Positions 4,956-39,290 of a stretch of 64,000 bases of DNA are shown here, one piece after another. Source of the stretch: a virus; IMG/VR virus record IMGVR_UViG_3300026484_000308, positions 1 through 64,000 of that record. One strand, written 5' to 3'. Made by a program: the position numbers and the translations under genes. The notes under the pieces are model-generated. The model saw only the letters and a program-made list of their open reading frames with translations, did no database searches and was not told the origin of the DNA. Position 1 is the stretch's first letter, and every line of letters starts with the position of its first letter.

Positions 4956-4964
4956 GGAGGAAAT

Positions 4965-5177
4965 ATGTCATATGCTAGCACTGGTGATGGAAATTTAGCA
5001 GCTCTTCAAAAATACGAGGAAAAAATAGAAAAAGCAGAAAGAAATTACGCAGCTTTCGAAACAGCAATTGAAGAAGCTGGTATAGAAACAGAATTAGAAG
5101 AGTTAATCTCTAAATATAATTCTATAGCTGAAGATTTTAATATTAATGAAGACTTTAACGAGTACTTCTCAAAATAG
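4965..5177 (+). CDS. Small coiled-coil protein, 70 aa
   Basis: The protein is acidic, with a heptad-like segment from about residue 13 to 52 (LQKYEEKIEKAERNYAAFE and onward). A strong AAGGAGG lies upstream of the ATG. No family recognised. It stands in a run of small, closely spaced genes (4.4-6.9 kb) that look like one operon. Confidence 0.75.
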   Translation: MSYASTGDGNLAALQKYEEKIEKAERNYAAFETAIEEAGIETELEELISKYNSIAEDFNINEDFNEYFSK

Positions 5178-5425: not shown

Positions 5426-5903
5426 AAAAATTGCTATATATCTCGATGTAGATGGAGTATTAAATCAATATGATCATCATGAGAGAATTCGAAGATATAA
5501 GATACATAAGAAAGCCAAGTTTTCTTCAAAGACTGATGTATTTAATCCTTTTCAAAAAAAAGTACTACGTTTATATAAGCTTATTAAAAAATATAATGTA
5601 GATACTTATGTTTTTAGCGCTTGGACTTTGAAAGATTTACAACTACATGTACCTTTTAAACTTTTAGGAGATACTTGTAAATGGGCTAATCAGGTTAATG
5701 AAATATCTAAAAATTATTCTTTTAATCTTTTAATAGATGACGAAGTATCTTCTTTTATAAATAGAGAAGAAAAAGATTATGAAAAGGGTAGATATAAATT
5801 AAATAAAAATATAATTACTTATCAACCACATTATAATTTTGGATTAGTAAAAAAAGATTTTAAAAATTTAGAAAGGATTTTAAATGAATTTAGAATTAAA
5901 TGA
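5418..5903 (+). CDS. HAD-superfamily phosphatase-like protein
   Basis: The N-terminus carries HAD motif I, DVDGV (Asp10 and Asp12, the nucleophile and acid/base). Motif II is likely the serine in FSAWT near residue 73, and motif IV the LLIDDE segment near residue 110. The 161-residue size and the tryptophan after motif II resemble the small HAD proteins grouped as Swiss-army-knife RNA-repair-like domains. An RNA or nucleotide phosphatase is therefore a reasonable guess. The substrate cannot be read from sequence. It overlaps the next gene by 20 bases. Confidence 0.7.
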   Translation: MNKKIAIYLDVDGVLNQYDHHERIRRYKIHKKAKFSSKTDVFNPFQKKVLRLYKLIKKYNVDTYVFSAWTLKDLQLHVPFKLLGDTCKWANQVNEISKNYSFNLLIDDEVSSFINREEKDYEKGRYKLNKNIITYQPHYNFGLVKKDFKNLERILNEFRIK

Positions 5904-6390
5904 ATTTGGTAGTTGTCAATACAGTAGTATTAAAGGTTATATGGAAGAATTTAAAAACAATCTACCATTATGGACAAAAACCGATTTATATAATATCAAA
6001 ATTATCCATGAAAATAAAGGAAGCATTGGGAAAGATGGGAGTATTAAATTATCTTTTTCAAGCAATGTATTGAATAAAGGTATTATTGATGAGATTATAA
6101 ATAATATTAAAAAAGAATTTCTTACTATGTTAGAAGATGATAAGGAATTTTATAAGTTAGAAGACTGTCTAAATAATATAAATAATATAAAATCGATAGA
6201 CGATTGTTATAATTATTGTAAATCATGTTCTTGTGATTTATGGAGCACTAATAATTTTATTATGAATCACTTTTATAAACGAGATGTTGAAGATTTTAGT
6301 AATAATGATATGATTGCGATAAGTATTTTATGGTTGTTAGAAAATAATATTGTTACCGATATTGAGTGTTTTTATAATTTTGATACATAA
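5884..6390 (+). CDS. Hypothetical protein, 168 aa, Asn-rich
   Basis: No family recognised. The middle has a cysteine cluster (CYNYCKSCSCDLW around residue 115) that might bind a metal. The start codon sits inside the end of the HAD gene, behind AAAGGA, so expression is probably coupled. Confidence 0.7.
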   Translation: MNLELNEFGSCQYSSIKGYMEEFKNNLPLWTKTDLYNIKIIHENKGSIGKDGSIKLSFSSNVLNKGIIDEIINNIKKEFLTMLEDDKEFYKLEDCLNNINNIKSIDDCYNYCKSCSCDLWSTNNFIMNHFYKRDVEDFSNNDMIAISILWLLENNIVTDIECFYNFDT

Positions 6391-6398
6391 GGAAAAAT

Positions 6399-6671
6399 AT
6401 GGAATATTTTGGAAAAGACGATTTAATTAAATGTGGTATCGAGCCAAAAATATCTGAAAAACTTTTGGCTTATTGTGCTAGATCCGGATTTATAAAAAGT
6501 AAACATTTTAAGGCTGAAGATAGTTTTAGACAACTTACTAAATATCATTCAGATGATCTTAAAAAAAGTATATTATCTAAATTAGAAGAAGCTAAAACCA
6601 ATAATACGCATTTAAGATATGTTGGTTTATGGAAAGAATATTTAACAATACTATCGGAACTTAAAAAGTAA
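6399..6671 (+). CDS. Hypothetical protein, 90 aa
   Basis: A small, mostly helical, basic protein with no recognisable motif. It has an AAGGA ribosome binding site and is followed 10 bases later by another small gene in the same operon. Confidence 0.72.
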   Translation: MEYFGKDDLIKCGIEPKISEKLLAYCARSGFIKSKHFKAEDSFRQLTKYHSDDLKKSILSKLEEAKTNNTHLRYVGLWKEYLTILSELKK

Positions 6672-6681
6672 AGGATTTATT

Positions 6682-6879
6682 ATGGATAAGTATCAGGAAA
6701 TGTCAGTAGTTGATATAGATAATATATTAAAAGATCTTCCTAAAGATTTAATAAGTATTGAAAATTTGGAAAGATTAATAATTGAATTAGAAAATGATAT
6801 AGGAATGTCCTTAAAAAATAAACGGGACACTATATCAATTCTAAGACAATTTTTAAATATAGTAAAAGGAAAAAAATGA
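6682..6879 (+). CDS. Hypothetical protein, 65 aa
   Basis: A small helical protein, Leu/Ile/Asp-rich, of unknown function. Its stop overlaps the ATG of thyX (ATGA), so it is the translational leader of that gene. Confidence 0.7.
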   Translation: MDKYQEMSVVDIDNILKDLPKDLISIENLERLIIELENDIGMSLKNKRDTISILRQFLNIVKGKK

Positions 6880-7775
6880 AAGAATTTGTAAATGTACTTG
6901 GTATAAATTATTCTAAACCAAAGGTAATTTTATTAAATGAGAATGGTATTGGTTCGGCTGAATTTGCTGGAAGAGTTGCTTATGATAGCTTTGAATATAG
7001 TGAGCACGAAAGTATTCGAGAATTAAATAATCTTACCAAATTAAATGAAACGGATGATATTAACATGTCATTAACAAGAGTAAAAAGAAATGTCAATGGT
7101 ATTGAAAATTCTGAATTACTCGATAGTTTAGCTTGGGTATATCATCACCATAGTGTTATTGAACATTCATCACTTACATTTTTAATAACTGGAACTTCGA
7201 GAGGTTCTTTACAAGAAATAGTTAGACATAGAATAGCTAGTTATACAGTGCGTAGTACAAGATATACAATGTCTTCTGTATTATATGCATTTCTATTGGC
7301 AGTAAAAACTCAAACACCGAGAGAAGTATTTCATGAGTTAATAACTCCATTAGATTTATTTGTAACAGATGATAATTATAATGGTATTGAAATAGATGCT
7401 ATGTTTAATAAATTATTATATCAGAGAGATTTAGATACGGATAATTTTGCTGGAATGTGTTTATCAAAAGAAGCTTTAATTTGGTATAATACAGTTGAAA
7501 ACGTAGAAGAAATTTATAAAGGAAACAGTATTCAAAAAAGTTTCGAAATACTTAGTACTTTTAAAAAGAAACGTAATGTTGGAGATTCCTTTAAACATTT
7601 AGTAACTGATAATTGGAAAACTGATTTAGTAATGACTATTAATCTTAGAAGTCTTAAAAACTTTTTCGAACTTAGAGATTCTGGAGCAGCTTACTTTTTA
7701 ATTAGAGAACTTGCTAAAGAGATGAAAGCAAAAACTCCAAAAAAATATCTCAACCTTATGGTAAAAGAACACTAA
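6876..7775 (+). CDS. thyX: FAD-dependent thymidylate synthase (ThyX)
   Basis: ThyX makes dTMP from dUMP with methylene-tetrahydrofolate, using FAD and NADPH. The signature RHRx7S is exact: Arg-His-Arg at residues 117-119 and Ser127, continuing STRYT. The upstream HHHSVIEHSSLTF block (residues 90-102) is the typical FAD-binding region. At 299 residues it is longer than many ThyX proteins because of extra sequence before the C-terminal GD..K..L block. Together with the thymidylate kinase at 63070 it would secure dTTP for an AT-rich genome. It ends an operon: a gap of about 290 bases follows. Confidence 0.93.
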   Translation: MKEFVNVLGINYSKPKVILLNENGIGSAEFAGRVAYDSFEYSEHESIRELNNLTKLNETDDINMSLTRVKRNVNGIENSELLDSLAWVYHHHSVIEHSSLTFLITGTSRGSLQEIVRHRIASYTVRSTRYTMSSVLYAFLLAVKTQTPREVFHELITPLDLFVTDDNYNGIEIDAMFNKLLYQRDLDTDNFAGMCLSKEALIWYNTVENVEEIYKGNSIQKSFEILSTFKKKRNVGDSFKHLVTDNWKTDLVMTINLRSLKNFFELRDSGAAYFLIRELAKEMKAKTPKKYLNLMVKEH

Positions 7776-8068
7776 ATTTCAATTTATATTTTATCGAGTT
7801 ATACCCAAATTCCTAGACACGAACCATATTATTATAGAATATTCTCGTTCTATAATAATGAATAATAATAATAGTCGCAAAATAACGAAGTTAATATTAA
7901 GATAATCGAATTAATATTAAATGTTTAAAACGTTTAATATTTTTTAAATAGAATTATCAATCAGTTATTTTATATGTGAATTTCAGCCATGTATAATTCG
8001 ATAACGATTCAATGAGAAAAAAAATAGAATCGTTTTAAAATTTAAATTAAAATTAAAAAGGAGTAATA
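7776..8068 (+). other. Intergenic region with three hairpins
   Basis: This 293-base spacer holds no open frame I can support. It contains a 12-bp perfect hairpin (7828-7839 with 7848-7859), a terminator-like hairpin with a T-run (7913-7945), and an AACGATTC/GAATCGTT pair (8003-8010 with 8027-8034). The leader of the next gene, including its AAGGAG site, closes the region. It probably separates two transcription units, so a promoter should lie within it, but I see no copy of the TATAGATATC promoter box found elsewhere. Confidence 0.6.
7913..7945 (+). terminator. Rho-independent terminator downstream of thyX
   Basis: AATATTAAATG (7913-7923) pairs with CGTTTAATATT (7931-7941), allowing one G-T pair, and is followed by a run of T. 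It lies about 140 bases after the thyX stop. Confidence 0.6.
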
Positions 8069-8327: not shown

Positions 8328-9452
8328 ATGGAAATAGAAATTTTTAAAAAAGAATTTATATTTACCTTACGTGGAAAAGAAACTATAAATATACAAAGAG
8401 TTAATAAAAAATTAATTTCAGAATTTCCGAATATTTATAAAAAGATTTTAGAAAGTACTAAAAATTTTAATATCCATCCGGAATTAAATAATATTGGTAA
8501 TCTTTGCAAATTATGGTTTTATGATTTACCAAATCCAGTTTGTCAAGAATGTGGAGAACCTGTTAAAAAATTAGAGAGAACCTTTTGTAGTGTTAAATGC
8601 AGAAATAAAAATAAAAAAATGTTAGAAATATCTAAAAAAAGTTCTATTAAAAAATATGGAGTTCCCCATTATTCCAAAACGATAGAGTTTCGTAAAAAAA
8701 TAAAAGAAACAACGGTATTTAAAGATAAAAATAAAATAAAAGAAGCCATTTTTAAAAAATATGGTGTTTATAACGTTTCTCAAATTCCAGAAATTAAAGA
8801 AAAAAGTACCAAAACATTTATTAAAAATTTTAGAAAAATAAATAATATTTCTAAAGAAAAATTTTTGAAATTTAAACAGGATTCTTTTTTAGATTTGAAT
8901 GGTTTGGCTAATTATTATAATTGGAGTCACGAATCTTTATCCCAACCTAGAAAATGGGCAAAAAGATTTAATATAGATTATACTAACCGTACGAATACTT
9001 CTATAAAAGAAAAGGAAATAATATCCTTTATAAAAGATAATTATTCTGGTAAAATTATTACAAATGATAGAAAAGTTTTAAATGGTTTGGAATTAGATAT
9101 TTATTTACCTGAAATAAATTTGGCATTTGAATATAATGGTTTGTATTGGCATAGTTATGGTTTAAATAATATTTCTGAAAAACAGGGCGATTTGGAATTT
9201 CAAAAAAATAGACATTTGGATAAAATAATCAAAAGTTCTGCTTGTAATATCGAATTAATTCATATTTTCGAAAATCAAAAATACAAGGAATTAATTTTAA
9301 ATAAAATTAATTCCAATAGACAATTTTTAAAATTTGAATTAAAATGTTATAAATATAAAAATAATGATATAACAGAAGCTTTTGAAATATTAATACCAAA
9401 ATATTTATTAGATGGGTATAGAATAATTTGGATACCGGAGGAAATAGTATGA
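8328..9452 (+). CDS. Homing endonuclease, EDxHD/Vsr-like, with zinc finger
   Basis: This is a free-standing homing endonuclease-like protein. An N-terminal zinc finger (CQEC and FCSVKC, residues about 71-97) is followed by two NUMOD-like repeats, KKYGVPHYSKTIEFRKK and KKYGVYNVSQIPEIKEK. The C-terminal nuclease core has GLELDIYLPEINLAFEYNGLYWHS near residue 265, then a downstream histidine-lysine segment. That core matches the EDxHD class related to Vsr repair nucleases. It abuts the polymerase fragment: the stop overlaps the next ATG. Homing nucleases of this kind often sit in or beside phage replication genes, which fits. Confidence 0.8.
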   Translation: MEIEIFKKEFIFTLRGKETINIQRVNKKLISEFPNIYKKILESTKNFNIHPELNNIGNLCKLWFYDLPNPVCQECGEPVKKLERTFCSVKCRNKNKKMLEISKKSSIKKYGVPHYSKTIEFRKKIKETTVFKDKNKIKEAIFKKYGVYNVSQIPEIKEKSTKTFIKNFRKINNISKEKFLKFKQDSFLDLNGLANYYNWSHESLSQPRKWAKRFNIDYTNRTNTSIKEKEIISFIKDNYSGKIITNDRKVLNGLELDIYLPEINLAFEYNGLYWHSYGLNNISEKQGDLEFQKNRHLDKIIKSSACNIELIHIFENQKYKELILNKINSNRQFLKFELKCYKYKNNDITEAFEILIPKYLLDGYRIIWIPEEIV

Positions 9453-10762
9453 ATATAGAAATTCCAAAAAAAATATTAAAAGAAAATAGTTGGCATATTA
9501 AAGTAATGGGAGCTTATGTTCAAAACCCAGTTCCAGGTATTTATGGATTGGAAGAGGATACTTTAATTAATTCAACGGATGCGGCTGCTCTATATCCAAC
9601 GAGTACAGTATACTCTAATATTTCTCCCGAAACGATTTTTGGAAGAATATACGATTCAAGTACGATTCAAAATTTTATAGGATTGATGGACAAGATTTTT
9701 CTTATGAAAAACAAAGGTCAAACTCCAGCTCAAATTAAAGCTTTAGTTATACCAAGTTTTAAATCGGCTATGTTACAATTACTAAAAAATTATAGTACTC
9801 AACATAATGTTAAAAATAAAAAAGAGGCTGAATTAGTAACTACCGAATATTATTGTGAATTACTAAGTAAGTTAATTAATTATAACGGAAATTTAGAGGA
9901 TATTTATACACCAAAGGATGATAAAACCTATTATCTTTTGCGCAGTTGTTTCTTTCCTTTAATTGAAAGTATATCTTGGTTAAGTCCACAGAATAAAGGA
10001 TTTAGCCAAATTACAATTGATTATATTTTTTATCCAGAATTATTTGAGACTAAATACCAGACTCAAAAAAGTTATTTATTTACTGATTATAATTCTGTAA
10101 ATATTAATTTTAAAGTTCTAGATAAAGAAGAATTAAAAACTCAGTATTTTCAAAATTATTTACTAAATTCATATGGTACTTTATTTTATAAACATTCTGA
10201 AAAATTAGCTTTTGAAGTTCAATTAATTATTGATGGTTTGGCAGAAAGAAGAATTGTTAAAAATAAAATGCTAGTACTAGATGCAATAATAGCTAAATTT
10301 AATTCTTGTGGTAGTATTAAAGAAGCATTTAAAAATCCAATAGAATTTTTAAATACAGAAGTCGCTGATAAAATTTTAACGGAAATCGAAGATGATCAAC
10401 CACGTCAGAAAAGAATACAATCATTAATTGGAATAGATTTTGAAGGTAAATCGTTTGAAAATCCTGAAAAATTAAAAGCTTATTTAAATATAAGAAAAGA
10501 TCAATTTAATAGTAATCAAAATGGTATTAAAGTAAGTCTTAATAGTGGTTATGGAATTCTTGGAATGATTTCTTATGAGTTTAGTGATCCATTATCAGCA
10601 AACAGTATTACAAATGCTGGAAAAATATTTGGTATTAAAGTTTTCCAAACAGTAAGTGCTTGGGTAATGGAATTATATGAAGAAAAATTAAAAGAATGTG
10701 ATGAAAATAATAATTGGTTGGATCCAGAATGGGTTGATTTAGATTTATTGGAAGTTACTTAA
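9449..10762 (+). CDS. Family B DNA polymerase, central (palm/fingers) fragment
   Basis: The 437-residue product contains polymerase motif A, DAAALYP at residues 44-50, followed by VYSNISPETIFG. That segment strikingly resembles the T4 gp43 motif A region (ISPETI). Motif B, KVSLNSGYG near residues 361-369, is followed by the GMISYEF and SITNAGK segments. The 3'-5' exonuclease domain is missing, since the protein begins only about 44 residues before motif A. Motif C (YGDTDS), the rest of the palm and the thumb are also missing. Motifs A and B are about 317 residues apart, roughly twice the T4 spacing, so the fingers carry a large insertion. The ATG at 9449 follows GGAGGAAATAGT. The other parts must lie elsewhere in the genome, or the gene is dead. 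Confidence 0.75.
   Translation: MNIEIPKKILKENSWHIKVMGAYVQNPVPGIYGLEEDTLINSTDAAALYPTSTVYSNISPETIFGRIYDSSTIQNFIGLMDKIFLMKNKGQTPAQIKALVIPSFKSAMLQLLKNYSTQHNVKNKKEAELVTTEYYCELLSKLINYNGNLEDIYTPKDDKTYYLLRSCFFPLIESISWLSPQNKGFSQITIDYIFYPELFETKYQTQKSYLFTDYNSVNINFKVLDKEELKTQYFQNYLLNSYGTLFYKHSEKLAFEVQLIIDGLAERRIVKNKMLVLDAIIAKFNSCGSIKEAFKNPIEFLNTEVADKILTEIEDDQPRQKRIQSLIGIDFEGKSFENPEKLKAYLNIRKDQFNSNQNGIKVSLNSGYGILGMISYEFSDPLSANSITNAGKIFGIKVFQTVSAWVMELYEEKLKECDENNNWLDPEWVDLDLLEVT
10752..10762 (+). repeat. Direct repeat AAGTTACTTAA, left copy
   Basis: This 11-bp sequence ends the polymerase fragment, including its TAA. An identical copy at 11642-11652 ends the homing endonuclease that follows, so the endonuclease gene is bracketed by the pair. 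It may mark how the cassette was inserted, or be chance similarity of two Val-Thr-stop ends. Confidence 0.5.
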
Positions 10763-13627: not shown

Positions 13628-15604
13628 ATGAAAAAAAATAGAGTAAAAATACTTTCCGAAAAAACACATGCTTTGAAAAGAGCCGGTCGGTATTTAGGTC
13701 AAATTACACCTGCTGAAATTAATAGATATAATATTTTCAATATTGATTCTACCGATTATATTTGGTATGATAAAGTACGTTATGTCCCAGCAGTTCTTAA
13801 AATTTTTAGAGAATTTTTAGATAATAGTATTGATGAAGCCATCCGTACTAACTATAAATTTGCTAATAAGATTGAGGTACAAGTACATGTGGACCATTTA
13901 AGTATTAAAGATAACGGTAGAGGCATTCCTATTGTTCCCGCAGTAGATGAACATGGATCCGAAATAGAAATTATGATGCCGGAGGCTGCTTGGGTAAATT
14001 TGAGAGCTGGTTCAAATTTTGATGATGAATCGGACAATACTAGTATTGGTCAAAACGGAGAAGGTGCTTCTCTTGGAGTTTTCTTTGCTAAAAAATTTAT
14101 TGGTGAAACTAGAGACGGTGAAAATATTTTTACAATTATTACTGAAAATAATGTCGAGACCAAAGAAATCGTAATAAAAAAGAAAAAATTGGCTGATTCT
14201 AAACGAGGTACCGATATAAAATTTTACCCAGATAAGGAAAAATTAAATTTGGGATTAGATGCTAATTTAAATGATGAATATTCCTCTTTAATTAAATATG
14301 AACTATTATTTTTAAGTATGACTTATCCAAAAATTACTTTTAAAATAAATGGGGAAACTTTAAAAATTAAATCTTTTAAAGATATTAAACCTTATTTAAA
14401 TTATCCACCTGAATTACTTAAAGATGGACAATTTGATTTTCAATATTTTGAAACGGAAAATTTAGTTATTGGTATTGGTAATTCATTAAATAATGGATAT
14501 ACAAACATTCATTTTGTAAATGGTATTAATGTTTATAACGGTGGGGATGTTTTAGAATGGGCTGAAAAAAGAGTTATTTTACCTTTAGTTGAAAAGATTC
14601 AAAAGAAGTACAAGAATATAAAAGCGGCAGATATTAAAAATCATTTAACCTTTATGGTACTCGTTAAAAATATTCCTAATCCTAGATTTGGAGATCAGAT
14701 TAAATCAGTGTGTATTAATACGGCTTCTCAATTTCCAGAAATAGCTAAGGAACTTTTAGATAAAGCAATGATTGATAAATTCATAAATAAACTTTATAAA
14801 AATAAAGTTATTATGGAACCGATTATTGATATTTATAGAGCTACTCAAATTATGCTTGAAAATAAAAAAGCTAAAACTGCTCAAAAATCTAAAAAAACTC
14901 CAGCAAAGTATTGGCCAGCTACAAAAAGAAAGAAACGATTATTTTTATCAGAAGGGGATTCTGCAATTAATCCTCTTATTTCTGAACTTGGTAGAGAGGA
15001 AAATGGTTTCTTTCCACTCAAGGGTAAAATGATAAATTGTATGAAAAAAAGTTTAGCTCTTGTTGTAAAAAATGACGAAGTACTTGAACTTGCTGATATC
15101 CTTGGAATTGATCTTACTAAAGATAATAATGGTGATGAAACACATCCATTAAATTATGAAGAGATTATTATTGGATCGGACGCCGACGTCGATGGTTCAC
15201 ATATTGCTCTTTTAGTACTAGCATTCTTTGCTAAGTTTGCTCCAGCGTATTTGGAAAAATTAAAGATTTATAGATTTTTAACTCCTGTTCTAATCGCTCT
15301 TAAAAATGAAAAACCTGTAAAAATGTTTTTTAAATTTGAGGATTATTTAGAATACGATTCTAATAAACCATCTGGTGTATCATACTTCTATGCTAAAGGT
15401 CTTGGTTCGTTATCTGAAGCTCATTGGGAAGAATTGTTTAAAAAACATACTCTCGAAGAGTTATGCCAACCATTAACTTTCGAGAATTCTAGTAACGCCT
15501 CACTAGAAAAATCTGAATTTGATCAATGGTTAGGAGACGATACTGATTTTCGTAAAACGAAAGTACTCGAACTTTTATCAGAATTTGATTTAGATAAAGC
15601 TTAG
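13628..15604 (+). CDS. DNA topoisomerase II large subunit (gp39/gp60-like, fused)
   Basis: This 658-residue subunit carries the ATPase and TOPRIM parts of a type IIA topoisomerase. The GHKL motifs are EFLDNSIDEAI near residue 62, DNGRGIP near 98, and GQNGEGASLG, the ATP lid, near 140. The TOPRIM metal site is LSEGDSA near residue 440 and GSDADVDGSH near 517. In T4 itself the corresponding chain is split between genes 39 and 60; here it is continuous. It acts with the medium subunit at 17277 in relieving supercoils during phage DNA replication. Two small unknown genes and a homing endonuclease separate the two subunits. Confidence 0.93.
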   Translation: MKKNRVKILSEKTHALKRAGRYLGQITPAEINRYNIFNIDSTDYIWYDKVRYVPAVLKIFREFLDNSIDEAIRTNYKFANKIEVQVHVDHLSIKDNGRGIPIVPAVDEHGSEIEIMMPEAAWVNLRAGSNFDDESDNTSIGQNGEGASLGVFFAKKFIGETRDGENIFTIITENNVETKEIVIKKKKLADSKRGTDIKFYPDKEKLNLGLDANLNDEYSSLIKYELLFLSMTYPKITFKINGETLKIKSFKDIKPYLNYPPELLKDGQFDFQYFETENLVIGIGNSLNNGYTNIHFVNGINVYNGGDVLEWAEKRVILPLVEKIQKKYKNIKAADIKNHLTFMVLVKNIPNPRFGDQIKSVCINTASQFPEIAKELLDKAMIDKFINKLYKNKVIMEPIIDIYRATQIMLENKKAKTAQKSKKTPAKYWPATKRKKRLFLSEGDSAINPLISELGREENGFFPLKGKMINCMKKSLALVVKNDEVLELADILGIDLTKDNNGDETHPLNYEEIIIGSDADVDGSHIALLVLAFFAKFAPAYLEKLKIYRFLTPVLIALKNEKPVKMFFKFEDYLEYDSNKPSGVSYFYAKGLGSLSEAHWEELFKKHTLEELCQPLTFENSSNASLEKSEFDQWLGDDTDFRKTKVLELLSEFDLDKA

Positions 15605-15612
15605 GAAAAATT

Positions 15613-16020
15613 ATGATAAGTAATTCTCCTAAGCAAAAAAAAATAAAAATTCCTATCAAAGTAGATCCAAAAAAAGAATATACACTTTTACATATTTTAA
15701 ATAGTGGTCAATTTCCAATGTATTTTGAATTAGATATAGAATACTTGAATTTATTATACAATCAAACTAAAGATCCACACATGGAATCTCTTTTAAGTTG
15801 GGCAGAGGAACATAAATATTTTAAAATAAAATCCCAAGCTGTTTTACATGTAGCTTCTAATATAAAAGAAGTTAATTACAGTGGGGATTTTTTCGAAATA
15901 TATCATGATAATTATTATTGGAATTTATTTAGTATTAAAAATATAATTCCTGGTGATGATAAAAAAGCTATTCATAAATTACTTGGAGTTGAAGAATTAA
16001 GAATTAAATTTGAGGAATAA
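15613..16020 (+). CDS. Hypothetical protein, 135 aa
   Basis: No family recognised. It has a basic N-terminal stretch (KQKKIKIPIKVDPKK) and a mixed alpha/beta body. It sits nine bases after the topoisomerase large subunit gene, so it is co-transcribed. The start has GGAAAAATT upstream. Confidence 0.72.
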   Translation: MISNSPKQKKIKIPIKVDPKKEYTLLHILNSGQFPMYFELDIEYLNLLYNQTKDPHMESLLSWAEEHKYFKIKSQAVLHVASNIKEVNYSGDFFEIYHDNYYWNLFSIKNIIPGDDKKAIHKLLGVEELRIKFEE

Positions 16021-16029
16021 AGGATTATT

Positions 16030-16374
16030 ATGACCAATGCAAAAATTAATCGCATGTTAACGACTAAAGAAAATTTTCCAGTAAGAATTATTTTTGATTT
16101 TCAATATATTGCTAATATTGCCTATCAAGGTGATCAAGAATATCATTATCTTTTAGAAAATTTACCAAGTATTGTAAAATTAGAGTCATATGATGATTTT
16201 TCATTAAATAATAATTATATTAGATTTGAAATTAATGACCAATTTTTAAAGGATTGTGTTAATGAAGATTTATTTAATACTTCAAAATATTTATCCTTTT
16301 CATATGATATAATTAAAGATATTATGCTTGAACGACCAAAAATAAAACAACCCGTAAAAATTAACTTCGAATAA
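16030..16374 (+). CDS. Hypothetical protein, 114 aa
   Basis: No family recognised. Mixed alpha/beta composition with many aromatic residues. An AAAGGA site precedes the ATG. It lies between the topoisomerase large subunit and the inserted homing endonuclease. Confidence 0.72.
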   Translation: MTNAKINRMLTTKENFPVRIIFDFQYIANIAYQGDQEYHYLLENLPSIVKLESYDDFSLNNNYIRFEINDQFLKDCVNEDLFNTSKYLSFSYDIIKDIMLERPKIKQPVKINFE

Positions 16375-16383
16375 AGGAGAAGT

Positions 16384-17289
16384 ATGTATTCATATGAAAA
16401 TATTATATCAAAATTTATCGATAAACATGGAAATAAATACGATTATTCTTATGTAGATTATAATAATATGAAGACAAAAATAAAAATTATTTGTCCAATA
16501 CATGGTGAATTTTTACAAACCCCAACCGAACATATTAAAGGTGGTTGTAAAAGATGTCATTCGACAAGATTAACAACCTCGGAAGTTAAGGCAAGATTTA
16601 TTTCTAAACATGGTGATAAATATAATTATTCTCATGTTATTTATATTAAAAATGATAAAGCTGTAAAAATTTTTTGTAATACGTGTAATCAATTTTTTTT
16701 TCAAAAACCAATTATCCATTGGTCTGGTGGTGGTTGCACTAAATGTTCTTATAAAAAAAAGAGAATTTCTTGGAAAAAAGATATTAAATTTTTTCAAAAA
16801 AAATTTAATAATAAATACTGTTATAAATATAATCCCGAAATTGATAAAAAAATATATATTTTTTGTCCGTCTCATGGTTGGTTTACAAGTTTAATAGGTA
16901 ATCATCGTAAAGGTATTGGATGCCCTAAATGCTCCAATACAAGAACTCTTAGTAAAGGAGCCACTAAAATAAAAAAATTTTTAGAATCTAATCAAATAAG
17001 TTTTGAATTAGAAAAAAGATTTCCAGATTGCCAAAATGATAAAACATCATATTCTTTACCATTCGATTTTTATTTATCTGATAAAAATATTTTAATAGAA
17101 TTTGATGGAGAATTACATTATAAAAATATATCCTTTTTTGGAGGAAAAGAAGAGTTAAAAAAAATCCAAGATCGTGATAAAATAAAAACGGATTATTGCA
17201 AAATAAACCATATTAAACTTATTCGAATTCCTTATTGGAATTTTGATAAAATAGAAAAAATATTAAAAGGAGAAATATGTCAAATTTAA
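16384..17289 (+). CDS. Homing endonuclease-like, DUF723-type repeats plus Vsr-like nuclease
   Basis: It has the same plan as the gene at 10762. Three zinc-binding repeats (first one SKFIDKHGNKYDYSYVDY, CPIHGEFLQTPTEH, CKRC) precede a Vsr-like nuclease core, PFDFYLSDKNILIEFDGELHY, then QDRDKIKTDYC and LIRIPYWNF. The second repeat is more diverged. It lies between the topoisomerase subunit genes, a common target for homing nucleases in T4-like phages. Its end overlaps the start of the medium subunit gene by 13 bases, so it may influence expression of that subunit. Confidence 0.8.
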   Translation: MYSYENIISKFIDKHGNKYDYSYVDYNNMKTKIKIICPIHGEFLQTPTEHIKGGCKRCHSTRLTTSEVKARFISKHGDKYNYSHVIYIKNDKAVKIFCNTCNQFFFQKPIIHWSGGGCTKCSYKKKRISWKKDIKFFQKKFNNKYCYKYNPEIDKKIYIFCPSHGWFTSLIGNHRKGIGCPKCSNTRTLSKGATKIKKFLESNQISFELEKRFPDCQNDKTSYSLPFDFYLSDKNILIEFDGELHYKNISFFGGKEELKKIQDRDKIKTDYCKINHIKLIRIPYWNFDKIEKILKGEICQI

Positions 17290-18674
17290 AAATGAAAGTA
17301 TTTTTAGATGAGGCTGTAGCAACGTATGCAGTGTATAAGGTAGTCCAACAGATTCCAGGATTTATAGATACTTTATCTCAAACACAAAGAAAAATATTGT
17401 ATGTTATGAGTGAGGTCCCAAGTAAAAAAGTAAAAACGGCAGAAACCTTTACTATGATTTACAATAAGACTAAATACCGACATGGTGATGTTTCCGTATA
17501 CACTACTGCCGAAAATTTAGCAGCTGATTATAATAATGGAATTTCCTTATTAAAACCAGAAGGTACTTTTGGTTCACGAACTGTTAAGAAAGCTTCCAGT
17601 CCAAGATATACCAGTGTTGTTTTTGGACAAAGTTCTCAAAGTATCTTTAATAAAAGAGATTATCCATTAATGGAAAAACAATATACCGAAGGTAAGCGAA
17701 TTGAACCATATAATATGTTACCTATTGTACCACTTGGTTTAATTAATGGTGCTGATGGTATTGGTCTTGGTTTTAGCTGTAAAATATTCCAACGTAATCC
17801 AAATCAAATTATCGATATCATTATTGATATTTTATCTGGTAAACGTAAAAATATTCCAGCTAGTATAAAACCAGATTTTCCATTTTTTAATGGAAGTATT
17901 GAAAAGGGAGAAGGTAATTCCCAATTTGTAATGACAGGAGTTTTTAAAAAACTTCCAAGAAATACAATTGAAATTACAGAATTACCTATTTCTATGGATA
18001 GAGAGAAATATATAAAATTTCTTGATACTTTACGGGACGCGAAAAAGATTAAATCTTTTACAGATGAATGTAAAAAGAATACTTTTTACTTTAAAGTAAA
18101 AGTAGATCCAGAAATTTATAATTTAAACGATTCTAAATTAATAGATTTATTTAAATTAAAAGAAACGATATCTGATTCAATTACTTTATTACATAGAGAA
18201 GATTCTAGATATAATATTCTTACTTTTAATTCAGTATCTGAATTTCTAAAAGCTTGGATTATTGAAAGATTTAAATACTATAATCTTAGAAAAGAGCATG
18301 AGTTAAGACATGCTGAAAATAGATTATTATTAGCTAATGAAAAGATTAGATTTATCTATTGTATTTTAGATGGAAAAATTATTGTAAATAGAAGATCTAA
18401 AGCTGATATAGAAAAGCAGATTATAGATAATGGTTTTAAACCTATGTCCAATGATTCACAAAGTTCAGAAGAAGATAAAAGTTTCAAATACTTATTAAAT
18501 ATGCCTATTTATAACTTAAGTCTAGAACAGATAGAAATTCTTAAAAAACAGAAAGATGATATTGAAAAAGAGATTAGTGAATTTAGTTCTTTATCTCCAG
18601 CCAATATTTGGATAGATGAATTAAAGGCTCTTAAAAAAATTATTTCTAAAGAGCAGCGTTCAAAAGAACTTTAA
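17277..18674 (+). CDS. DNA topoisomerase II medium subunit (gp52-like)
   Basis: This is the DNA-cleaving subunit of the phage type IIA topoisomerase, homologous to T4 gp52 and GyrA/ParC. It has the N-terminal TLSQTQRKILYVM helix, KYRHGDVSVY, the GTFGSR stretch, and the catalytic tyrosine at residue 111 in SSPRYTSV. The tower and coiled-coil region runs to residue 465, and the beta-propeller C-terminal domain of gyrase is lacking, as in T4. It starts behind AAAGGAGAAAT within the end of the homing endonuclease gene. It closes the replication block: a promoter-like box and hairpin follow. Confidence 0.92.
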   Translation: MSNLKMKVFLDEAVATYAVYKVVQQIPGFIDTLSQTQRKILYVMSEVPSKKVKTAETFTMIYNKTKYRHGDVSVYTTAENLAADYNNGISLLKPEGTFGSRTVKKASSPRYTSVVFGQSSQSIFNKRDYPLMEKQYTEGKRIEPYNMLPIVPLGLINGADGIGLGFSCKIFQRNPNQIIDIIIDILSGKRKNIPASIKPDFPFFNGSIEKGEGNSQFVMTGVFKKLPRNTIEITELPISMDREKYIKFLDTLRDAKKIKSFTDECKKNTFYFKVKVDPEIYNLNDSKLIDLFKLKETISDSITLLHREDSRYNILTFNSVSEFLKAWIIERFKYYNLRKEHELRHAENRLLLANEKIRFIYCILDGKIIVNRRSKADIEKQIIDNGFKPMSNDSQSSEEDKSFKYLLNMPIYNLSLEQIEILKKQKDDIEKEISEFSSLSPANIWIDELKALKKIISKEQRSKEL

Positions 18675-21511: not shown

Positions 21512-22549
21512 ATGAATAAAATAGCTTTCATTAAAGATCCACATCTTATGTTTGGGTTTTCTAATAATATTAGAAAACCTTTATCAGGTGGTTCTGGAAA
21601 TAGTTGGGAAAGAAGTATCCGATATAAATTAGAATTTATAGCCAAAACAATGAAAGATAATGGTATAAATATTTTAATTATATCCGGAGACGTTTTTGAT
21701 CGGGCAAAGCGAAGTGATTGGTCATTTAATAAATGGTTAAAACATAAAAATATATTATTGGATATTTTTGTACACGAAGGAATTGAAATTTATTCAGTAC
21801 AAGGTAATCATGATATGTTTGATGGTAAAGCAGAATTAGACGGAACTGTTTTTGGAGAAATGGTCGAAGAAGATATTATTAAACATTTGACTACATATCC
21901 ATTAGAATTTCAAACAATAGTTGGTATTATTAAAATTCATGGAATGGATTATTCATTCACTAAAGATGAACAAAAAAGAAAATTTCACTCCATGAATGAG
22001 GATTCAAAAGATTATATTAGCATATGCGTTTCGCATACTAACATTAGTCCAAATGATGAACATTTAGTCGATTTTACCTATCAAGAATTAACCGAACAAT
22101 TTCCAAATATTGATGTTCATTTATGTGGACACTATCATTTAGGTTATGAAAGTACCCAATTAAATGAAGTTACTTTTATTAATCCTTGGAATATGACTCG
22201 GGTATCCCGAGAGTATCAAGTTCGTATGGATAACCATACCCCAGAAGTTGTATTGATAGATCTGGATAGATATAGTTCAAATAATATTGATTGGATTGAA
22301 CACGTGGAACTTCCACATTTGCCATTCCATAACGCATTTAACGAGGAGGTTATATCGGTACTAAAGGAAAATCAAAAGTTTAAATTTTTTGAGGATTCTT
22401 CTGGGGAAGTTATTAGTCTGGATGGACTTATCGATGAGGATTTAGATGATAATCAATTACTTAGTGTAATTATTAATTCAGTTCTCGGAGATAAAGATCC
22501 TAAAGAAAAACAAGCTTTATTAAATAAAGCTTTAGAATATTTAATTTAA
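21512..22549 (+). CDS. Mre11/SbcD/gp47-like nuclease
   Basis: The 345-residue protein has the metallophosphoesterase motifs of Mre11-type nucleases in order: KDPH (Asp9, His11), SGDVFDRAKRSDW, QGNHDMFDG, CVSHTNISP, and LCGHYHLGYES. It is therefore expected to be the exonuclease/endonuclease partner of a Rad50-like ATPase, as T4 gp47 is of gp46, acting in recombination-dependent replication. The candidate ATPase partner lies 14 kb downstream at 36480 rather than next door, and is itself rearranged. A C-terminal acidic tail (about residues 300-345) may be the ATPase-binding part. Confidence 0.88.
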   Translation: MNKIAFIKDPHLMFGFSNNIRKPLSGGSGNSWERSIRYKLEFIAKTMKDNGINILIISGDVFDRAKRSDWSFNKWLKHKNILLDIFVHEGIEIYSVQGNHDMFDGKAELDGTVFGEMVEEDIIKHLTTYPLEFQTIVGIIKIHGMDYSFTKDEQKRKFHSMNEDSKDYISICVSHTNISPNDEHLVDFTYQELTEQFPNIDVHLCGHYHLGYESTQLNEVTFINPWNMTRVSREYQVRMDNHTPEVVLIDLDRYSSNNIDWIEHVELPHLPFHNAFNEEVISVLKENQKFKFFEDSSGEVISLDGLIDEDLDDNQLLSVIINSVLGDKDPKEKQALLNKALEYLI

Positions 22550-34282: not shown

Positions 34283-34690
34283 TTGAAATTATACGAATTA
34301 AAAATACATAAACGTGATGATTATTTTTATAACCATGATACATTTAGTGTTAAACTTATTAACGTTATTGAAACTATTAAATGTGAATACACTTATAAAG
34401 AAAATAAAAAAATAATTAGAAATAATACTTTTTTAAAATATAAAATAAAAAATGGTAACGATATAGAAACTATTGATGTTACGGATGGAACTTATTTTAA
34501 AACGTTAGACGAACTTCTAGAATATTTTAAAAAAAAATATTTTAAAGTTCATTCGGATAAATATTATGATTATTATATGAATATTGATAATAAAGATTCT
34601 ATCACGTGTGTATCAAATTTATCGGCTAAGGGATTAGGATTAACCGAAGGTTATATAGATTTACAAAAAAAATTAAAGGAGAATAAATGA
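34283..34690 (+). CDS. Hypothetical protein, 135 aa
   Basis: It starts at a TTG behind GAAGGA. The protein is rich in Lys, Tyr and Asn, probably with a beta-strand N-terminal half. No family recognised. Its stop overlaps the ATG of the NADAR gene, indicating coupling. Confidence 0.68.
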   Translation: MKLYELKIHKRDDYFYNHDTFSVKLINVIETIKCEYTYKENKKIIRNNTFLKYKIKNGNDIETIDVTDGTYFKTLDELLEYFKKKYFKVHSDKYYDYYMNIDNKDSITCVSNLSAKGLGLTEGYIDLQKKLKENK

Positions 34691-35655
34691 AAAAAGTAAA
34701 AAGTTTAAATGAACTTATAAATGGAGAATATTATTGGATGCATAGTAAAATGATTTTTGATAATGGTTTTAGAAGTTCACAAATGTTAATACACCGTTAT
34801 CGAAATCTTGAAGATAGTAGAGCTTATTTTGGGGACCGTATTTGGGCATTTGATGGTAATAACCAAGCTATGGAAAAATATGATATTTATGGACCAGTTC
34901 CAAAACCATTTAGAGGTGATTTAAGCAATCCAAATAATTCACAATCTTCGGAATTTGAAAAAGTATTTGGAAATAATGAAGAATTGGATTTAATGATTGC
35001 TCAAATTAGAGATAGTTTTACAGAAGAAATTACAAAATATATTCCGGAGAGTAGCGCTTATAGTTCACCTGAATGTGTTTTATTTGCTCTTTATAAAAGT
35101 ATTGAAGATAAGTTATCAACTTCAAAAGAGATAACTAAAGGTACTGATAGTTTACTATCAATAGTTGACGTCTCAAAAGAAAATAAATTTGAATTTTTTT
35201 GGGGAGGAATATTTTCACAATGGGCTAAATATAATTTTACCGATGAATATGGAGTAATCTATAATTGTGCTGAACAGTACATGATGGCTCAAAAAGCAAA
35301 AGTTTTTCAAGATAAGGAAACGTATGATAAAATTATGGCTAGTACTAATCCAAAAGAACAGAAAGCTCTTGGTAGAAAAATAAAAAATTTTAATGATGAA
35401 ACTTGGGATAAATATAAAATAGATGTTGTTCGAACTGGAACGTATTTAAAATTTTTGCAACATCCAGAATTAAAAGAATATCTTTTAAGTACTGGTAATA
35501 AGGTAATAGTAGAAGCTTCTCCGTATGATAAAGTTTGGGGAATTGGTCTCAGTGAAACAGATCCATTAAGATTAGATCCAAAAAATTGGAAAGGGCAAAA
35601 TCTGCTTGGTTTTATTATAATGCAGGTAAGGGAACAATTAAAGGAGATTAAATGA
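34687..35655 (+). CDS. NADAR-domain protein (ADP-ribose glycohydrolase-like)
   Basis: The C-terminal half (about residues 168-318) is a NADAR/YbiA-like domain: FFWGGIFSQWAKYNF, then YNCAEQYMMAQKAKVF, AL...KNFNDETWDKYKID, and WGIGLSETDP ending in NLLGFIIMQVR. NADAR enzymes have been shown to remove ADP-ribose from guanine in DNA, reversing DarT-type toxins, and related domains act on ADP-ribose-like metabolites. The N-terminal 130 residues are unrelated, with WAFDGNN and many aromatics, and might recognise the target. A phage copy could protect its DNA from DarTG-type defence. Confidence 0.85.
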   Translation: MKKVKSLNELINGEYYWMHSKMIFDNGFRSSQMLIHRYRNLEDSRAYFGDRIWAFDGNNQAMEKYDIYGPVPKPFRGDLSNPNNSQSSEFEKVFGNNEELDLMIAQIRDSFTEEITKYIPESSAYSSPECVLFALYKSIEDKLSTSKEITKGTDSLLSIVDVSKENKFEFFWGGIFSQWAKYNFTDEYGVIYNCAEQYMMAQKAKVFQDKETYDKIMASTNPKEQKALGRKIKNFNDETWDKYKIDVVRTGTYLKFLQHPELKEYLLSTGNKVIVEASPYDKVWGIGLSETDPLRLDPKNWKGQNLLGFIIMQVREQLKEIK

Positions 35656-36428
35656 GATTTATGCAATTAGGAAACGGTGGTGGATTAGATCCAACAGCTA
35701 CGAATAGTAGTTTTTTAGTCCAGGTAAAAGATAATGAATATCTATTGTTTGATTGTGGTTTTAATATTATGCAAAGACTTATAGAAATTGAAAATAATCC
35801 TTCAAATGAATTTAATATTGGAATGATTAAATATGTATATGTTTCACATATACATGATGACCATGTCGGGAATTTAGAAACATTAATGTTTTGGAATTAT
35901 TTTAAAAATAATTCCAGTATTACTTTTCTTTATGCAAATGATGAAACGGAAGAATACTTTAAAAATAAATTATTTCCAAAATTATACAATGGTGGTAAAA
36001 TTGATACAAATTCTGTTATTAACTCAACAATGATAAAATTATATCATGGTTCTACACAAGGTTATAATATAAAAAAAGATATCAAACATATACAAAGTAC
36101 TAATGTTTCTATATTGGCATTATATAAAACATTTCATGGTGATTGTCAATCAAATGGTTTGGTTATTATTAATAATATAACTAATACTGCTTTGGTTATA
36201 AGTGGAGATACAAAGGCATCACTGCACTTAGAAGAAGAGATATTATATAAATTAAAAGATTGTAAATCTTCTATAATTTATCATGATTATAGCGATTGGG
36301 ATTGTCCTAGTAAAAATGTTCATGCTTGCAAAACAGATTTTGAATGTGAGTATTCTGAAGATTTCCAAAATCAAATTATAAAATATCATGATAATGGCGA
36401 TTTTATAACCGATTGGCAAAATTGGTAA
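35652..36428 (+). CDS. MBL-fold metallohydrolase (possible cyclic nucleotide phosphodiesterase)
   Basis: The metal-binding signature HIHDDH is at residues 66-71. It is preceded by LLFDCG near 33 and followed by FHGD (His162), SGDT (Asp186) and a late YHDYSDW/KNVHAC histidine region (His211, His224). The N-terminal GNGGGLDPTATNSS segment resembles the start of RNase Z and related phosphodiesterases. At 258 residues it is close in size to the MBL-fold Apyc1 enzymes by which phages destroy cyclic mononucleotide signals of Pycsar defence. That specific assignment is inference; RNase Z-like or other hydrolases remain possible. A terminator overlaps its stop. Confidence 0.75.
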   Translation: MRFMQLGNGGGLDPTATNSSFLVQVKDNEYLLFDCGFNIMQRLIEIENNPSNEFNIGMIKYVYVSHIHDDHVGNLETLMFWNYFKNNSSITFLYANDETEEYFKNKLFPKLYNGGKIDTNSVINSTMIKLYHGSTQGYNIKKDIKHIQSTNVSILALYKTFHGDCQSNGLVIINNITNTALVISGDTKASLHLEEEILYKLKDCKSSIIYHDYSDWDCPSKNVHACKTDFECEYSEDFQNQIIKYHDNGDFITDWQNW

Positions 36429-36452
36429 AAGGATCTTCGGATCCTTTTTTTT
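36428..36452 (+). terminator. UUCG-loop rho-independent terminator
   Basis: AAAGGATC (36428-36435), loop TTCG, GATCCTTT (36440-36447), then further T. It starts at the stop codon of the MBL-fold gene. Confidence 0.9.
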
Positions 36453-36479: not shown

Positions 36480-38537
36480 ATGTCAGAAATATTACCAAAA
36501 TTAGATAATATACCAGATTTTGAAAATAAATTAATTCAATTAAATAATCAATTTCATATCAGTTCAAAGATTAAAGAAAATTTAGAAAATGAAACTGGAA
36601 CATTTTTAGAAAAAAATACTCTTATTGAAGATGAATTAAAATTATTAAATGATACTAAAATGCTTTTAGAGACTTTAAAAATTCATAAACTTAAAGAGAA
36701 AAAAGATTTTATTCTTAATATAGTAAATACTGCTTTAGTGGATATCTTCCAAGATAATATTAAAATAGCGATCGAACCTCAAGAAGGTAAAGGTAAAGTT
36801 AATACAAGTGGAACTCAAAAATTTGATATAATTTTTTATCAAAATGATATTGAATTAGCTAGAAATGAAGAATTGCTTATTTCTAATGGTGGTGGTATAA
36901 TGCAAGTTGTATCGATGCTTTTTAAATTATTAATAGGTTTTATTTATTCTAAAAATACTTTTTATATGTTTGATGAAAGTTTTAGTCAGTTAAGTGCAGA
37001 TAACAGAATTCGTCTTAGTAAATTTTTACAAATGTTTTGTGAACAATATAACTTTACTATAGTTGTTGTTTCTCAAGTTCTTGATTTAGATGAGTACGCT
37101 GATATCATTTATAGCGTGAATGCTAAATATAATAGTAATGGGGTTCGAGAATTAGTACTAGAGGATACTACTGTTAAAGAAGGTATTCTTGAAAGAAATA
37201 TTGGTGAAGGACAAGAAGGATTATGGGGATTAAAAATAAAAAATTTCCAAAGTATTAAAGAAATTGATTTAATTTTTAAAGGTTATACAATTATACGTGG
37301 TCCAAATAATTCTGGTAAAAGTGCTATACTTAGAGCAGTTTCATCTATTTTGTATAATTCATTTAATGTAAAAAAATATCCTCGTAAAGCTGGTGGTTTA
37401 GATACTAAAGGTAATCCAAGTAAGAAAGTTTTAAATACTGAAATAATTTTAGAAAAAACTTATTTTAAAGATCCAACAATAGAAGATGAAAAAAATGAAA
37501 TAATTCAAAAACGAGTAGGATTGCGTTATAAAAGTTCTAAAGTATCCTTTGTTATAGAAGGAGAAGAATATTACGGAAAGAATTTAGCCGCTGAAAAACT
37601 TATGGAAAAAATTGAAGAACTTGGATTCAAGTACATTAATTTAAAAGAATTTTATAAGAACTTTAAAGGTAATTTAAAAGATCAAACAGAAAGAATTGCT
37701 AGTACTACTCAGTACGACGGATTATTTTTAGTAGGTTCAAAAGGTAATGAAACAGAAAAAATTTTTAACTTTTTATTCAATACTGAAAATATTACTAAAG
37801 CTATTTTAAAAGTAAAAGAAGATATGATGCTTTTATCAAAGAATCATGAAACTAATCAAGAACGTATTCTTGAAAATACTTCTAAAATAGAAGAAGTCAA
37901 TAATGAAATTAGATATTATTTAAAATTATATTATTTAACAATTATTGAAAATTTATCTTTATTCGATACAAAAGAATTAAAAAATTATATAACCAATCTT
38001 GATTTTGAAATCAATACTAGAAATCAGATTATAAATTTAATTTCTAAAAATCTTAATTTATTTAATGATTCTTTTTTACAAGTTAAGCAAACGGTTCAAT
38101 ATACAAATAATTTAAAAGATAATTTTAATGAATTAAGTACTAGAACGGATTACTTAAATAAGCAAATTTTGAAATTAGAAGAATTAAAGATATTAATAGA
38201 TGAAACTTCTGGAAAATTAGAAATGGTTAATCAAGGACTTCTTTTAAAGAAAAATATAGAAACCTTAAAATTCAATTCAAATATGAAAGTAAGCGAGATC
38301 GAAGTAATTGATTTTAGTTTACGAATTAGATATCAAATTGTAGAACGATTGGAAAAGATTTTTAAATTAAATAATTATCTTGATCAATATTCAAAGGATT
38401 ATTCTAAAAAGAATAATCTTGACTTATATTTGGAACCAGTGATTAATCAATTACAAGTTCTAAAATTAAAACACCAATCTTTATTTACGGAATGTAATAA
38501 ATGTTCAGGTAAAGGTTTTATATTAAAAGGAAAATAA
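36480..38537 (+). CDS. Circularly permuted Rad50/SbcC/gp46-like ATPase
   Basis: All parts of a Rad50-type ATPase are present but in rotated order. Residues 20-90 form a coiled coil. Then come the C-terminal lobe elements: signature-like ISNGGGIMQVVSMLFKLLIG (135-153), Walker B FYMFDES (161-167), and the switch strand IVVVSQ (194-199). Only after these comes the N-terminal lobe with Walker A GPNNSGKS (274-281), then a long coiled coil (about 430-660), and at the very end the zinc-hook-like CNKC (Cys672, Cys675). A normal Rad50 runs N-lobe, coil, hook, coil, C-lobe. This chain is thus opened at the hook and joined between the lobes. It presumably partners the Mre11-like nuclease at 21512. Confidence 0.8.
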   Translation: MSEILPKLDNIPDFENKLIQLNNQFHISSKIKENLENETGTFLEKNTLIEDELKLLNDTKMLLETLKIHKLKEKKDFILNIVNTALVDIFQDNIKIAIEPQEGKGKVNTSGTQKFDIIFYQNDIELARNEELLISNGGGIMQVVSMLFKLLIGFIYSKNTFYMFDESFSQLSADNRIRLSKFLQMFCEQYNFTIVVVSQVLDLDEYADIIYSVNAKYNSNGVRELVLEDTTVKEGILERNIGEGQEGLWGLKIKNFQSIKEIDLIFKGYTIIRGPNNSGKSAILRAVSSILYNSFNVKKYPRKAGGLDTKGNPSKKVLNTEIILEKTYFKDPTIEDEKNEIIQKRVGLRYKSSKVSFVIEGEEYYGKNLAAEKLMEKIEELGFKYINLKEFYKNFKGNLKDQTERIASTTQYDGLFLVGSKGNETEKIFNFLFNTENITKAILKVKEDMMLLSKNHETNQERILENTSKIEEVNNEIRYYLKLYYLTIIENLSLFDTKELKNYITNLDFEINTRNQIINLISKNLNLFNDSFLQVKQTVQYTNNLKDNFNELSTRTDYLNKQILKLEELKILIDETSGKLEMVNQGLLLKKNIETLKFNSNMKVSEIEVIDFSLRIRYQIVERLEKIFKLNNYLDQYSKDYSKKNNLDLYLEPVINQLQVLKLKHQSLFTECNKCSGKGFILKGK

Positions 38538-39290
38538 ATGGATTATTTAAATTATTTAAAAACTACTCCAATAGATAATCAACAAGTTATATCCAGTACA
38601 CGTGGATTACCAAAATCAGTTTCTAAACAACCAGAAAATAAAATACCGAATCAAACACATTCCAAAGATTCTATAAATCAAATTAATAAAAGTATTTCTA
38701 GTATAGGTAATAATATTATGGGTGTTCAATTGCCTAGTGATTTAGGGGGAGATATTTTAAAAAATTCCACCCTTAATGATATATTGGATTATTCTGATTA
38801 TCAAGAATTACTAATGGATATAAAAAAATTTATTACTAAACAATATGGTGATATTTGGTATGCTAAAGAATTAGAGTCTTTAAATTTATATAGTTATTTA
38901 TTAAGTGAAGTAACTGGTATCATAAATAACATATTTCCTAGTAATAAAACTTTTGACATTTCTAACTACAGAGAGGATATTATTTTTGAAAAATTGGCTA
39001 ATTTATATTTTGGAATATTTCTTATCTTTTTACATGAAAGTGATGAGATGAGTATTTACAGTCTTTTAAATAGTTATATTAAACTTAGCGAAGATCCAAA
39101 TTTTCAAAGAGATAAAGGTATTATTTTTAATAATGCTTGGGATACATTGGTTCTTCCAATTAGCATTAAACAACATCATTTAGTACTTATAAAATTACTT
39201 GACTTTTGGTTTGGGATAGGCGGGACATGGGAAATTCTTAAAAAAAGAATTAAAATTAAGTTGTTAAAGGAAAGTGAAACTTTAAAATAA
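38538..39290 (+). CDS. Hypothetical protein, 250 aa, with disordered N-terminus
   Basis: The first 65 residues are polar and low in hydrophobics, so probably disordered; the rest (about 90-250) is helical with many Leu, Ile and Phe. No family recognised. It begins directly after the stop of the permuted ATPase and is surely co-translated with it, so an accessory role is possible. The region around its stop carries the ACTTTAA part of promoter site 2. Confidence 0.7.
   Translation: MDYLNYLKTTPIDNQQVISSTRGLPKSVSKQPENKIPNQTHSKDSINQINKSISSIGNNIMGVQLPSDLGGDILKNSTLNDILDYSDYQELLMDIKKFITKQYGDIWYAKELESLNLYSYLLSEVTGIINNIFPSNKTFDISNYREDIIFEKLANLYFGIFLIFLHESDEMSIYSLLNSYIKLSEDPNFQRDKGIIFNNAWDTLVLPISIKQHHLVLIKLLDFWFGIGGTWEILKKRIKIKLLKESETLK

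Follow-up and report, generated by a model that had tools for sequence, protein, structure and literature searches.

A phage Rad50-like ATPase with lobes in reversed order and a terminal CxxC, and a phage family with Rad50 in two genes

Introduction

What kind of protein carries the motifs of both Rad50 lobes in the reverse of their usual order and ends in the cysteine pair that normally lies at the middle of the chain? The question is raised by a 685-residue ORF in the window, by which we mean the whole stretch of 64,000 nucleotides analysed here (positions 1 to 64,000 of IMG/VR virus record IMGVR_UViG_3300026484_000308). A preliminary description, made from the sequence alone, had seen in it a Rad50 chain cut at the zinc hook and rejoined through its lobes, with an Mre11 partner encoded elsewhere. 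Our analysis favours the view, to which we assign a probability of roughly 0.85, that the protein is a circularly permuted Rad50 (SbcC/gp46-type) subunit of a phage Mre11-Rad50 nuclease complex. Judged by its sequence, it is best read as a C-half/N-half fusion that came out of a larger phage family in which Rad50 is split into two genes.

Layout and homology of the 685-residue protein

The ORF has an ATG start preceded by a plausible ribosome-binding site, contains no internal stops and is single-copy in its 114,404-bp virus record (Table 1). Its chain runs coil, C-lobe, N-lobe, arm and CxxC, not the N-lobe, coil, hook, coil and C-lobe of a canonical protein. The C-lobe motifs (SNGGG, FYMFDES and VSQ) indeed precede the Walker A motif GPNNSGKS, and both lobes lie in a single ORF joined by a short linker, which bears out the earlier proposal of a head made from one continuous polypeptide. 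The N-terminus had been taken for the descending coil, in agreement with a helix in the AF2 model that aligns with the N-terminus of the separate C-half proteins described below. The CNKC motif likewise stands at the C-terminal end, with 10 residues between C675 and the stop.

An ORF at 38538-39290, which gave no family match, lies directly 3' of the gene and holds the same place in contigs L002 and L003, and possibly in L127 (such handles denote viral contigs and loci throughout). Elsewhere in the window, HNH/homing endonuclease genes at 8328-10762 and 13628-18674 sit beside a piece of a DNA polymerase gene and between two topoisomerase II subunit genes.

Table 1. Features of the permuted gene, its surroundings and an associated coiled-coil protein (coordinates are those of the window unless a contig is named)
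Feature	Position	Strand	Basis or remark
Mre11-like metallophosphoesterase, 345 aa, presumed partner	21512..22549	+	Pfam Metallophos E=9e-11
Intrinsic-terminator-like hairpin with T run, between MBL gene and Rad50 gene	36427..36448	+	one found in region, 1.8 expected in shuffles
Permuted Rad50-like ATPase, whole gene, 685 aa	36480..38537	+	architecture kept in L002, L003, L022, L023, L127, L132
N-terminal helix, residues 7-90, equivalent of descending coil ahead of C-lobe	36498..36749	+	AF2; aligns with N-terminus of separate C-half proteins
Rad50 C-lobe, residues 94-232	36759..37175	+	profile to P. furiosus Rad50 E=9e-17; phrog_15167
Signature motif SNGGG, residues 135-139	36882..36896	+	Gly at canonical Ser position
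Walker B FYMFDES, residues 161-167	36960..36980	+	D165, E166 invariant
Switch/H-loop VSQ, residues 197-199	37068..37076	+	Gln for His in 6/7 permuted proteins
Linker from C-lobe to N-lobe (fusion joint), residues 233-248	37176..37223	+	AF2; variable among relatives
Rad50 N-lobe, residues 249-432	37224..37775	+	profile to archaeal Rad50 E=3e-13; Pfam AAA_23 E=6e-7
Walker A GPNNSGKS, residues 274-281	37299..37322	+	motif alignment
Q-loop Gln411	37710..37712	+	motif alignment
Helical arm, residues 436-667; helices 436-492, 497-595, 605-667; fast evolving	37785..38480	+	AF2; dN
Terminal CxxC hairpin CNKCSGKGFI; C672, C675 at 38493-38504; strands 669-671, 678-680	38484..38522	+	Cys conservation; AF2
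Small coiled-coil protein phrog_18563	L008:3774-4010; L011:5456-5749; L158:5589-5873; L042:9894-10154		accompanies split Rad50

Each lobe, taken by itself, points to Rad50. The best profile matches of the C-lobe and the N-lobe, to the P. furiosus and the archaeal Rad50 listed in Table 1, ranked above SMC proteins and transporters. Among the PHROGs, residues 16-218 matched phrog_15167 ('ATPase', 211 aa) and residues from 251 on matched N-lobe families, and the Pfam families AAA_23/SMC_N were matched from residue 251 onward only. When the single protein was compared with the PDB by phmmer, residues 251-301 aligned significantly with residues 6-55 of T. maritima Rad50 and residues 138-205 with residues 282-349, a match that is weak alone; the order of the two segments is swapped. 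The AF2 model calculated from 26 sequences (pLDDT 78.8, pTM 0.61) contains the strands and helices of both ABC lobes, mostly at good confidence, in keeping with the ABC-type head for which structure prediction had been proposed as a test; an earlier model from 5 sequences was poor (pLDDT 59). Foldseek searches with the better model returned weak single-lobe or partial matches to SMC/Rad50 heads (best E=1.7e-3), as expected for swapped lobes because Foldseek is order-dependent. The sequence thus supports reading the protein as a circular permutation of a Rad50-type ATPase with its new ends at the CxxC motif.

The same order in other viral contigs

Six other IMG/VR contigs encode proteins of the same architecture, 604-683 aa long and ∼36-79% identical, the identity to the window protein being 78% for L002 and L003, ∼42% for L022 and L023 and ∼37% for L127 and L132. 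All of them carry the terminal CxxC, 8-18 residues ahead of the stop, and the C672/C675 pair is invariant in the seven permuted proteins (7/7) even though the arm that precedes it is poorly conserved. The seven group as a single clade (100/100) when both lobes are used to build a tree. Comparison of the window protein with L002 and L003 indicates purifying selection on both lobes (dN 0.03-0.10, dS 0.32-0.68), with a dN of about 0.27-0.36 for the arm. The arm of the L127 protein (5899-7854) has repeated KRSFEDQL-like units, a pattern that suggests lengthening through duplications within the arm. When 84,980 prokaryote genomes were scanned with two short patterns, the permuted gene was not found; the one match, in the Walker A region, came from a Methanobrevibacter MAG and was weak.

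A wider family with Rad50 in two genes

A profile scan of viral contigs yielded 80 loci, and at 46 distinct viral loci Rad50 is encoded as two genes, an N-half and a C-half of ∼205 aa (among them L008, L024, L042, L066, L098, L158 and about 40 more; PHROG families 16465 and 15167). The two halves, phrog_16465 ('exonuclease') and phrog_15167 ('ATPase'), correspond to those of the window protein and match its two parts end to end in a clean alignment. This result comes from a smaller mix of sequences (A11), as many N- and C-halves placed in one alignment (A6) were misaligned and the initial C-half alignment was too divergent to scan the collection. A CxxC lies within 25 residues of the C-terminus in 72 of 83 distinct N-lobe ORFs in which no C-lobe was detected, compared with a chance of 0.24% in shuffled sequences. 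Most of the remaining 11 are comparators, canonical or unrelated; the rest are L147, which has no CxxC, and L096/L121, which are one and the same record and contain one Mre11-Rad50N fusion. The N-half alignment, of 27 rows, shows the cysteine pair to be invariant, and the ending is nearly always CPxC (CPLC, CGKC and CSQC are examples of terminal motifs). Most N-halves end in CPxCG, whereas in 6/7 permuted proteins the CxxC is followed by G-x-G (CxxCxGxG). A C-half is present in 19 of 24 whole records, two of the 24 being permuted-gene records; the five without one are all fragments of at most 37 kb.

Among named phages, those in which close relatives turned up carry Rad50 as two separate genes; the annotation of these records does not identify the pair as one divided Rad50. 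The gp32 of Bacillus phage vB_BboS-125 (471 aa) comprises the N-lobe and arm and ends in ...GGICPLCEQTHKGGGC, and its gp35 (211 aa) consists of a short helix followed by the C-lobe. The N-half of Tunturiibacter phage Tunturi_5 (gp181) ends in ...TLCGKCGDPISKSAA, its C-half (gp14) lying ∼108 kb away, and in Microcystis phage Mvi-JY20 the N-half, an Mre11-like protein, a small coil protein and the C-half are four consecutive overlapping ORFs, all annotated 'hypothetical'. A search of annotated phages with the whole 685-aa protein gave one C-half match and nothing else.

Split and permuted proteins share their arm lengths and, for the most part, a GGG signature (xGG[GAS] overall), and both occur with Mre11 nearby or in the genome. 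They differ in that the split proteins are two polypeptides, retain the H-loop His and, in many loci, are accompanied by a small coiled-coil protein (phrog_18563, about 80-95 aa) encoded upstream of the C-half, which is possibly a replacement piece of the arm. No such protein was found in the seven permuted-gene records searched, some of them fragments, and a candidate in the window genome was rejected, having weak coil matches only. Two loci depart from the common pattern. At L096 (5050-8035) Mre11, the Rad50 N-lobe and the arm occupy one 771-aa ORF with its CxxC at 630, overlapped by a separate C-half ORF, which may reflect either another split point or a frameshift. Microbacterium phage Magritte gp155 (L157:2489-3541) is an N-half that lacks the terminal CxxC, and the corresponding C-half is gp2, about 93 kb off.

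A presumed Mre11-type partner and altered catalytic motifs

The Mre11 partner that the preliminary description had placed at 21512, away from the permuted gene, stands up to scrutiny: the protein has the phosphoesterase motifs DPH, GDVF, GNHD and GHYH and is 38%/35% identical to Mre11-like proteins of L022/L023, where the Mre11-like gene lies just upstream of the permuted Rad50 with one small ORF between. An Mre11 orthologue is present in six of the seven permuted-Rad50 records, the seventh being a 35-kb fragment, and no permuted record has a strong match to AAA_23, the Rad50-like N-lobe family, other than the permuted ORF. At the 46 two-half loci an Mre11-like gene was found in 43, between the halves in 34. 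The 14 kb that separate the two genes in the window count against a complex, but the Mre11 orthologues, the sole AAA_23 match and the neighbourhoods of the split family make an Mre11-Rad50 type complex the best-supported reading. Two more metallophosphoesterase-like ORFs lie upstream in the L002 record (1816-2640 and 4057-4998).

Among the permuted proteins the Walker A Lys, the Q-loop Gln and the Walker B Asp/Glu are strictly conserved. The signature-like ISNGGG of the preliminary description is present, but where a canonical signature has its Ser, the 33 split and permuted proteins compared all have Gly, a call that assumes an ungapped alignment of GGG with SGG. The switch strand is likewise there as VSQ, except that the H-loop His has become Gln in 6/7 permuted proteins. 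With Gly at the signature and Gln at the H-loop, ATP hydrolysis or engagement may be altered.

Discussion

Three other accounts of the gene and its partner have to be set against a permuted Rad50 working with Mre11. An assembly error joining unrelated genes, or a chance read-through of two such genes, was an obvious concern, and the unusual lobe order is all that speaks for it; the recurrence of the architecture in six independent contigs refutes it, purifying selection acts on both lobes, both of which are Rad50-like by profile, and we regard this origin as practically excluded. The nuclease partner could instead be the MBL-fold hydrolase encoded directly upstream (35652-36428), paralleling a possible case in temperate phages of Firmicutes with genes for an SbcC-like ATPase, RecT and an MBL protein. 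The MBL gene adjoins the permuted gene in the window, L002 and L003, and ATPase-RecT-MBL neighbourhoods occur in L014, L017, L018 and L019, but a weakly supported terminator-like hairpin (one found where shuffles give 1.8) lies between the two genes, L022, L023 and L127 have no MBL gene at that place, and the distribution of Mre11 among permuted records and split loci makes this partner very improbable. The same hydrolase has weak similarity to the anti-Pycsar protein Apyc1 and adjoins a gene for a NADAR-domain protein (34687-35655), the pair being kept in L002 and L003 and possibly serving in anti-defence. It is also conceivable that the Rad50 fold has been retained while activity as a DNA-end ATPase was lost, leaving a tether, structural or regulatory, that turns over ATP weakly. 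The Gly and Gln substitutions and the fast-evolving arm fit this idea, which we nevertheless consider unlikely given the strict conservation of the remaining catalytic residues in the permuted proteins and the fact that the signature change recurs in the split family, whose genes accompany that for Mre11.

The geometry of the arm is a closer matter. In the preliminary description the chain was cut at the hook; the new ends do fall at the CxxC, but not at the apex of a symmetric coil, since the ascending arm has ∼231 residues and the descending one ∼84 (∼232 and 80 in the split proteins), lengths that a plain hairpin opened at its tip would not readily give. The distal part of the ascending segment possibly turns back on itself: were the chain to turn near 596-604 and return, the arm lengths would balance, with 160 residues up (436-595) and 147 down (605-667 plus 7-90, 63 + 84), and the CxxC would come to lie midway along the arm, next to the free N-terminus. 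The cysteines would then form a mid-arm zinc knuckle that clips the broken strand in place, not an apical hook between molecules. The helix break and lowest confidence of the AF2 model at 579-608 agree with such a turn, as do the recurrence of the roughly 3:1 asymmetry in 32 proteins and the enrichment of helix-breaking Pro/Gly at fairly regular spacing in a 26-member group of N-halves. On the other hand, the CPxCG at N-half ends resembles an ordinary Rad50 hook motif, and the CxxC lies mid-coil in canonical phage relatives (LP65 and phage G). We rate the knuckle somewhat below even odds. Zinc binding by the free CxxC ends, and dimerisation of subunits through them, are the most tentative of our proposals.

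With respect to known systems, the permuted Rad50 shares with Rad50, SbcC and T4 gp46 both lobes, Walker A, Q-loop, Walker B, a helical arm, a CxxC and a genome-encoded Mre11-type partner, and differs from them in its reversed lobe order, a CxxC at the C-terminus and not in mid-chain, arms of unequal length, a GGG signature where they have SGG and, in most permuted proteins, the H-loop Gln. Rearranged viral Mre11/Rad50 genes are known from the Mre11-Rad50 fusions of the Mimivirus R555 type (PMC3175470), and our analysis met one in gene 240 of Rhizobium phage RHph_TM40; the latter has the canonical N-to-C order of Rad50 joined to Mre11, unlike the window protein. The CxC-type ABC ATPases related to DndD (PMC10853773) are similar in being coiled-coil ABC ATPases with an unusual zinc hook. 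We found no description of a split or permuted Rad50 in the open-access papers searched, an earlier mention elsewhere being possible, and the wider family with Rad50 cut into two genes at this place is apparently undescribed.

The permuted gene probably came about in two steps, a fission that gave two genes and a later fusion of these in reverse order, and not through one cut-and-rejoin of a whole chain. The split and permuted proteins together stand apart from three canonical phage Rad50s in the tree (100/98). Within this group the two kinds are sister clades, so that the split-first order rests on parsimony; long branches are present, and the exact order of events is to that extent our reconstruction. 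An ancestral phage Rad50 would have been divided between two genes, one for an N-half with the CxxC at its end and one for a C-half, and the permuted lineage, which in the simplest history arose once, would later have joined the two with the C-half first. The resulting chain would start with the descending helix, pass through the C-lobe, a short linker and the N-lobe, climb the arm and stop just after the CxxC hairpin. The order of parts, the homology of the lobes, the terminal CxxC and its conservation, the split relatives and the co-occurrence of Mre11 are read directly from sequence; the course of fission and fusion, the gating of Mre11 and the role in the phage are what we infer from them.

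T4 gp46/47 processes DNA ends for recombination-dependent replication and degrades host DNA. By analogy, ATP binding by the permuted protein would clamp two heads together, as in gp46/SbcC, and in this way gate the action of the Mre11-like nuclease encoded at 21512 on DNA ends, which would serve resection, recombination-dependent replication or the degradation of host DNA; we infer a phage role like that of gp46/47. The free CxxC ends would bind zinc, holding together either a pair of subunits or the strands within a single arm, with no peptide passing the hook. Whether the whole picture holds, that of an Mre11-Rad50 machine whose hook is made of free ends, produced by fission just after the CxxC in many phages and reverse-order fusion in one clade, is in our estimate an even wager.

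If it does hold, the two strands of the arm could separate, and since the head would be covalently closed and the arm covalently open, the compartment for DNA could open at the hook with no peptide broken. This would bear on two open questions about Rad50 and SMC proteins. One is whether ATP-driven changes can reach the hook only through an arm made of a single unbroken chain, the other whether hook or head is the site at which the compartment opens. Nature would offer ready-made test constructs for both, in the present protein with its fused head and open arm and in relatives whose head is open too. The analysis also suggests a function for phage families whose sole annotation is 'exonuclease', 'ATPase', 'chromosome segregation protein' or 'hypothetical protein'.
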